A stretch of DNA of 45,405 nt from a virus: the IMG/VR virus record IMGVR_UViG_3300033388_002654, positions 1 through 45,405 of that record. One strand, given 5' to 3'. Below the pieces are notes generated by a model. The model saw nothing but the letters and a program-made list of their open reading frames with translations. It did no database searches and had not been told where the DNA came from. Positions within the stretch are counted from its first letter, which is position 1, and every line of letters starts with the position of its first letter. Below are positions 44,308-45,405 of this stretch, piece by piece. The position numbers and the translations under genes were made by a program.

Positions 44308-44388
44308 ATGACTTTAAATATTTTTGAAGGCACTAAAAATCATATTATTAAAACAAACCCTAGCTACCAAAGAGGCACGCTTCAATAA
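44308..44388 (+). CDS. Possible very small protein (26 aa)
   Basis: GAAGG lies seven bases before ATG 44308. The ORF encodes a short basic peptide (NIFEGTKNHIIKTNPSYQRG). A 16-codon frame (44255-44305) overlapping the lipoprotein stop lies before it. Neither can be judged from the sequence alone. Confidence 0.3.
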   Translation: MTLNIFEGTKNHIIKTNPSYQRGTLQ

Positions 44389-44414
44389 ATATAACCCAAA
44401 GCTAAACTGAGAGC
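44389..44414 (+). other. Half attC-like site
   Basis: ATATAAC followed by CCAAAGCTAAACTGAGAG closely resembles the left half of the site at 44839 (ACATAAC, CTAAAGCATGACTGGAG). No matching right half (GTTRRRY) follows before the next ORF at 44420. It may be a fossil of a recombined attC. Confidence 0.4.
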
Positions 44415-44419
44415 GAATT

Positions 44420-44836
44420 ATGAATGAGAAAGGTGAAATTTACGAAACTGGTTTTTATGATGGACAAGCAGCAGAACAAAGCAGCAATAGCGAGTCAGAT
44501 TTGAGCGCCTTGTTATGTGTTGGCGACTTAGTGGTGCTAATTAGACGATTAGCCCATTCTTTAAATAAAGCCAGCCCTGACAACGTGTTAGTAAAGCAGG
44601 CAATGGGCTATTTAAGCAGAACCGATAAAAAAGGCTGCGTTACTCGTGAAGCAAGTATGTTTTCAGATTTTGAAATTAAGAGAATGGCAGTGAATCCTGA
44701 CGTTTTACGTGCTGTAGCAAATGAGCATGACTGTAGTGTATGTGAGGGTGAATCTATGGGTTACGACTGTAGCGGAAATATTAAAAGAGCAAAAGAGCTT
44801 GTAAAATTAGCCGATGAAATTGACGCTAATATTTAG
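44420..44836 (+). CDS. Hypothetical protein, possible cassette gene (138 aa)
   Basis: GAGAGCGAATT precedes the ATG. The N-terminal part is acidic and Ser-rich, and the middle reads LIRRLAHSLNKASPDNVLVK, then QAMGYLSRTDKKGC, a pattern I recall from small accessory proteins of several phages (the Asn-X-Leu-X3-Ala-X2-Tyr-Leu element). Its function is unknown. It lies between a half and a full attC-like site. Confidence 0.62.
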   Translation: MNEKGEIYETGFYDGQAAEQSSNSESDLSALLCVGDLVVLIRRLAHSLNKASPDNVLVKQAMGYLSRTDKKGCVTREASMFSDFEIKRMAVNPDVLRAVANEHDCSVCEGESMGYDCSGNIKRAKELVKLADEIDANI

Positions 44837-44838
44837 AC

Positions 44839-44904
44839 ACATAACCTAAAGCATGACTGGAGAGGCCGCTTTTTGGCCGAATCCGGTTTATGCAGTTGTT
44901 AGGC
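44839..44904 (+). other. attC-like integron recombination site
   Basis: ACATAAC (44839-44845) pairs with GTTAGGC (44898-44904) at five of seven positions; the arms around GCAT and GGA also pair, and the centre forms a perfect GGCC-GCTTTTT-GGCC hairpin. The 66-bp length and RYYYAAC/GTTRRRY-like ends fit attC, although R'' has one pyrimidine mismatch. The next ORF begins directly after it. Confidence 0.72.
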
Positions 44905-44922
44905 ATTTAATTGGAGAAATTA

Positions 44923-45402
44923 ATGAAGAATAAAGATCAAGGACCAGTAGAAGGGGAGAGTGTCGCTATATTTGTTGTATTCGTTAGCGTTCTCGTTGGT
45001 GAAATTGAAGTCATGATTGAGACAGAAAAAATGATTTCTCACGTAACAAACAAAGATGTATCTGACGAAGCAATAAAAGCATTAGAGTGCGTAAAAAATC
45101 TGTTAAGTATTAGTGATCGTGACGAATTAATAAATGCTTCAGCAGAGGCGCATAACGTAACTTATGTTCCAGATGAAGGCTCGTGCGATCACTACATAGA
45201 TATGCTTTCGTCATGTGTTTCAGCCATACGGTTTGGTTTGGCGCTGCCATGTCGATCACGCCACGCAGCAGAAGCCGCAGATCATGTTTGGAAACAGCGT
45301 TACGGTTTAACTTTGTTTGATAAGCACTCGAATAAGTGGGGGAAGCAATGGGCAAGAGCAAAATTTTATGAGGCGCTAGGCGTTGCTGCTTTAGTTGCCT
45401 AA
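44923..45402 (+). CDS. Hypothetical cassette protein (159 aa)
   Basis: ATG 44923 is preferred because GGAG lies before it; a TTG at 44911 is possible. The protein is helical and alpha-rich: EGESVAIFVVFVSVLVGEIE, a middle with SDEAIKALECVKNLLSISDR, and a C-terminal HAAEAADHVWKQRYG, FDKHSNKWGKQWARAKFYEA. A weak resemblance to DUF416-like helical proteins can be seen. It lies exactly between two attC-like sites on the circular map, as a promoterless integron cassette would. Confidence 0.75.
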   Translation: MKNKDQGPVEGESVAIFVVFVSVLVGEIEVMIETEKMISHVTNKDVSDEAIKALECVKNLLSISDRDELINASAEAHNVTYVPDEGSCDHYIDMLSSCVSAIRFGLALPCRSRHAAEAADHVWKQRYGLTLFDKHSNKWGKQWARAKFYEALGVAALVA

Positions 45403-45405
45403 CCA
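45292..45405. repeat. Terminal direct repeat, right copy
   Basis: Identical to positions 1-114. It marks where the circular assembly was cut and should be counted once. Confidence 0.95.

Follow-up and report, generated by a model that had tools for sequence, protein, structure and literature searches.

The window analysed here is the whole of the IMG/VR virus record IMGVR_UViG_3300033388_002654 (45,405 nucleotides). The record is circular: positions 1–114 are an exact repeat of 45292–45405, and this 114-bp end overlap leaves a circle of 45,291 bp. The phage genome has a G+C content of 37% and carries tailed-phage genes for a terminase, a portal and a ParB-like protein. The terminase is approximately 42% identical to those of Proteobacteria phages, its relatives reaching 43% identity at most. 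A spirochaete host, suggested by one arm of an attC-like site (S1, see below), was rejected because the phage genes look like those of Proteobacteria phages. Searches with TIGR02249 and PF00589 across the whole genome gave no match, revealing neither an integron integrase gene nor a tyrosine integrase gene. Between 42400 and 45405, promoter-like sites were not in excess and no terminator-like site was seen, which is compatible with, and no proof of, read-through from a phage operon. Positions 2193–2563 are densely filled by a tandem repeat spaced at 12 and 18 nt, with several open frames on either strand.

Scanning of the circularized genome for core sites revealed four attC-like sites in series, a lone terminal core and four gene units (Table 1). 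The unit boundaries coincide with the cleavage points of GTTRRRY, between the G and TTRRRY, and each unit consists of one attC and one or two small genes. The plus-strand motif TTGTTA[TG]G[CT] is found at 44510, 44896, 181 and 620, all within the 1.5-kb array; the rest of the genome has just two further occurrences.

The sequence-only reading had described a single integron-type cassette in a phage without an integron integrase, namely a 159-aa ORF that crosses the circle junction between two attC-like sites (S1 and S2) and ends within a core. This ORF (P0001), both flanking sites and the stop codon (a TAA that falls within GCCTAAC) are present in the sequence, and the reading as a cassette in a phage without an integrase is supported by the hexamer rule described below and by the lack of a TIGR02249 or PF00589 match. 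The cassette is not solitary, however: it is the second of four consecutive units, and the further sites S0 and S3 had been missed.

Table 1. Sites, cores and genes of the phage array on the circular record
Feature	Position	Strand	Basis and details
attC S0	44389–44518 (130 bp)	minus	R'' ACATAAC, R' GTTATAT; final array site when read in attC orientation
Unit C1 gene, 138 aa as called	44420–44836	plus	ORF list; called start inside S0
attC-like S1	44839–44904 (66 bp)	minus	R'' GCCTAAC, R' GTTATGT
Unit C2 gene P0001, 159 aa	44923–45402, ends at 111 on the circle	plus	Translation
attC-like S2	106–189 (84 bp)	minus	R'' ACCTAAC, R' GTTAGGC
Unit C3 gene, 96 aa, DUF7678	213–503	plus	Stop codon within ACCTAAC
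attC S3	498–628 (131 bp)	minus	R'' ACATAAC, R' GTTAGGT
Unit C4 first gene, 118 aa as called	527–883	plus	ORF list; called start inside S3
Unit C4 second gene, 76 aa	884–1114	plus	ORF list and sequence; stop codon within ACATAAC
Lone terminal core	1109–1115	minus	GTTATGT; outer boundary of C4; complements R'' of S3

A GGAGA ribosome-binding-like motif lies upstream of P0001. The protein had no relatives among phages, plasmids, IMG/VR, GTDB contigs and 198 genomes of the Alkalispirochaeta phylum, and a search of the PDB gave no notable match; a single-sequence fold (mean pLDDT of 45) was left unused. The C3 protein matched Pfam family PF24726 (E = 3.4e-9, above the family cut-off) and has phage relatives. 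The C1 protein showed a weak match to phrog_660 that is confined to the portion after the attC. Matches of the unit genes in PADLOC, NCBIfam and most of those in PHROG were weak and were treated as noise.

attC-like sites and the hexamer rule

To provide a reference, known attCs were gathered from a Vibrio phage integron, a Shewanella prophage integron, class 1 integron plasmids and spirochaete genomes with intI. Their arms aligned nearly without gaps and revealed an extrahelical base at position 16, often with another at position 20. From 23 known attCs, unrelated to the array, we built a covariance model (CM); because a MAFFT alignment of the full-length attCs misaligned the L boxes, the model was made from the true arms with N-filled loops. 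As positive controls unseen in training, the CALIN sites of phages TJE1 and H101, which have proved active in experiments (PMC9892861), were recovered at 33–43 bits, with one TJE1 site at 21 bits, compared with 12–24 bits in this array.

Genome-wide, the CM ranked S3 first (23.7 bits, E = 0.007) and S0 next (23.5 bits, E = 0.008), the background maximum being 15.4 bits. S1 and S2, each searched alone, scored 11.8 and 12.0 bits, under this maximum. The attC-model check proposed in the sequence-only reading, run here with our own model, was thus narrowly failed by the two sites that it had named, whereas their neighbours S0 and S3 passed. S1 and S2 would not pass if judged alone, and their support is their context. 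No Rfam family matching the sites was found, and a search for attC-end patterns in viral contigs returned only coincidences within coding sequence.

All four sites have R'' RYYYAAC and R' GTTRRRY cores 45–150 bp apart when one variable position is allowed to be A/T, and core deviations such as ACATAAC and GTTATGT occur in known attCs too. S0 and S3 have complementary L'' and L' boxes and extrahelical bases at positions 16 and 20 in the exact canonical register, on the minus strand only. At S1 and S2 the L boxes pair, with 3' spacers longer by 1 and 2.

Once a cassette has gone through a circular stage, its 5' TTRRRY complements its own R''. This hexamer rule holds in all four phage units and in 36 of 40 cases in known arrays, compared with 7% of random pairs, and it would hold in four of four by chance with a probability of approximately 3e-5. 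For the 159-aa unit, its weak flanking sites notwithstanding, the rule is the strongest argument that it is a cassette. Within approximately 1.5 kb there are two sites that exceed background and two that are weaker, a grouping that corresponds to a CALIN (at least two close attCs and no integron integrase); a complete integron would have intI with attI, and intI is absent. Together, these results indicate that the array is probably a CALIN, comprising four integron-type cassettes without an integrase within a rightward-oriented gene cluster of a tailed phage.

A homologous cassette in a second phage contig and the state of the array

The only IMG/VR relative of the C1 protein is borne by a second phage contig, IMGVR 3300033388_000956 (hereafter L075). 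Positions 1–407 of L075 hold a cassette homologous to C1 and C4, and the contig starts inside the attC of this cassette. The attC, which scored 22.1 bits while cut by the contig end, is on the minus strand and overlaps the start of a plus-strand gene. The first part of this gene has 89% DNA identity to C1 over 117 nt and its end is C4-like, resembling the end of the first C4 gene, which makes the gene a mosaic; it terminates in TAGACACATAAC, as C1 does. The L075 cassette is like C1 in its minus-strand attC, plus-strand gene and boundary cores; unlike the array, it is a single unit and stands at a contig end. Outside the cassette, L075 and this phage have in common one structural protein with approximately 51% identity. 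Cassettes that are homologous and agree in boundaries and polarity are thus present in two largely unrelated phages.

In C1, C4 and the L075 gene, the called ORF begins within the attC and runs through it in frame (the starts are as called, and putative). The attC right arm TTGTTATGT (44510–44521, 620–631 and L075 111–122) reads as a same-frame LLC in the three ORFs that start within an attC.

Single-strand folding of the sites, set against shuffles, gave z = −2.8 for S2, z = −0.7 for S1 and positive z for S0 and S3 on the minus strand; folding energy by itself does not discriminate these sites. With S0 and S3 no more stable than their shuffled versions, part of the array may be fossil, and these two poorly folding sites may be decayed. 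A rival and quite conceivable explanation is that the attC-derived cassettes are now fixed phage genes whose decayed sites no longer recombine, any exchange between phages being homologous or illegitimate. The poor folding of S0 and S3 and the long spacers and weak CM scores of S1 and S2 agree with such fixation, as do the mosaic of C1-like and C4-like parts in L075 and the called ORFs that start inside S0, S3 and the L075 attC, whose loops seem to have been co-opted as coding sequence. Decay of this extent is at odds with the hexamer rule, still intact in all four units, and recombination of the bottom strand, once injected, was little affected when the loop of a Vibrio attC was replaced (PMC2727003).

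Polarity of genes and attC sites

The CM favoured the minus strand at all four sites (11.8 versus 7.7 bits at S1 and 12.0 versus 7.1 bits at S2, with S0 and S3 detected on the minus strand only), and AACAA follows R'' on the minus strand at each of them, as in most of the training sites. It is mainly the first extrahelical base that sets the recombining strand (Bouvier et al. 2009, PMC2727003). Because extrahelical bases and the CM place every attC on the minus strand and all genes are on the plus strand, the genes are reversed relative to the attCs. This is a non-canonical arrangement, and the canonical cassette layout that had been claimed for the 159-aa ORF does not hold. A gene in the direction of its attC, a usual though not absolute trait of cassettes, is found in no unit of this array. 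With attC polarity opposite to the genes, the attC accompanying the 159-aa gene would be S1, so that this gene would travel with its upstream attC and not with the downstream one.

Canonical plus-strand cassettes, in which each gene is followed by its own attC and has its stop codon in R'', would explain why three of the four units have a stop codon inside a plus-strand RYYYAAC core and why genes start soon after the preceding site; S2, moreover, pairs well on the plus strand if the register may slide. We nevertheless consider this arrangement decidedly improbable, given that both the CM preference and the AACAA following R'' point to the minus strand at four of four sites and that extrahelical bases occupy canonical positions on that strand only. 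That short attC-resembling inverted repeats arose by chance in an A+T-rich phage is hardly credible: loose motif scans do yield one to three comparable matches per randomized genome, and S1 and S2 lie within the CM background, but the genome's two best CM matches share a strand and are 1.5 kb from each other, R'' and R' cores follow one another in alternation, every unit obeys the hexamer rule and the L075 phage repeats the arrangement.

Taken as a CALIN with reversed genes, the array can be set beside known systems. Phage CALINs have been published for TJE1, H101 (PH101) and P12002L (Qi et al. 2023, PMC9892861); like this array, they are attC clusters in phages without an integrase, and several of their attCs recombine with attI1 by IntI1. 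Genes of TJE1 run along the attC, whereas in this uncultivated and different phage all units are reversed. In Pseudoalteromonas phage H101 (L071 26420–28488, corresponding to 75919–77987 of the record), four attCs are on the plus strand and the annotated genes are on the minus strand, with one unit ambiguous; the portion of the PMC9892861 text covered makes no mention of this strand opposition.

Chromosomal integron arrays of Vibrio and Shewanella (here in phages, L059 and L060) have the same arm geometry, GTTRRRY cleavage boundaries and hexamer rule as this array. Unlike it, they have an integrase, and in 20 of 22 units the longest ORF runs along the attC. Polarity is mixed in spirochaete arrays, which often contain small ORFs only. 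In one spirochaete unit (L052 14307–14787), the longest ORF fills the unit opposite to the attC; reversed units thus exist outside phages. Of the first 20 minus-strand bases of S1, in its 5' arm, 19 are identical to an attC of Alkalispirochaeta alkalica (L024; CCTAACAACTGCATAAACC), but that attC belongs to a bacterial genome with intI and genes along the attC, and its other arm and cargo differ.

A limited literature search found no statement of a consistent reversal of genes against attCs. This consistent reversal is the unusual part of the array; the class of phage CALINs is itself already known (PMC9892861). Few phage CALINs have been described, and this one, from an uncultivated phage, is an addition to them. 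The reversal is seen in all four of its units, in the homologous L075 cassette and in most H101 units.

As no integrase gene was found in the phage, any recombination would depend on an IntI supplied in trans by the host. We propose that host IntI, acting on single-stranded phage DNA, would have inserted the units, and that the phage's own transcription would express their genes. Placed in a host integron, these units would be antisense to the promoter Pc and mostly silent. Carriage of cassettes by phage between host integrons, as suggested in the sequence-only reading, is possible. A more speculative reading, which we hold to be unlikely, is that these are phage-adapted reverse-polarity cassettes: the gene would start in or beside its own attC and read away from it, being expressed in phage operons and silent in a host integron, and host integrons would serve as a depot for gene exchange among unrelated phages via host IntI. 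If the reversal is systematic, polarity would separate phage-expressed cassettes from those expressed in host integrons, and phages would be making a distinct use of the integron system.

No empty-site relative was found, the terminase relatives of the phage (at most 43% identical) giving no attC match with the CM. Joining of the outer flanks (44358–44394 and 1115–1154) gives an implied empty site. In the joined flanks, a short inverted repeat (ACGCTTC/GAAGCGT) surrounds the implied cut and may be due to chance.
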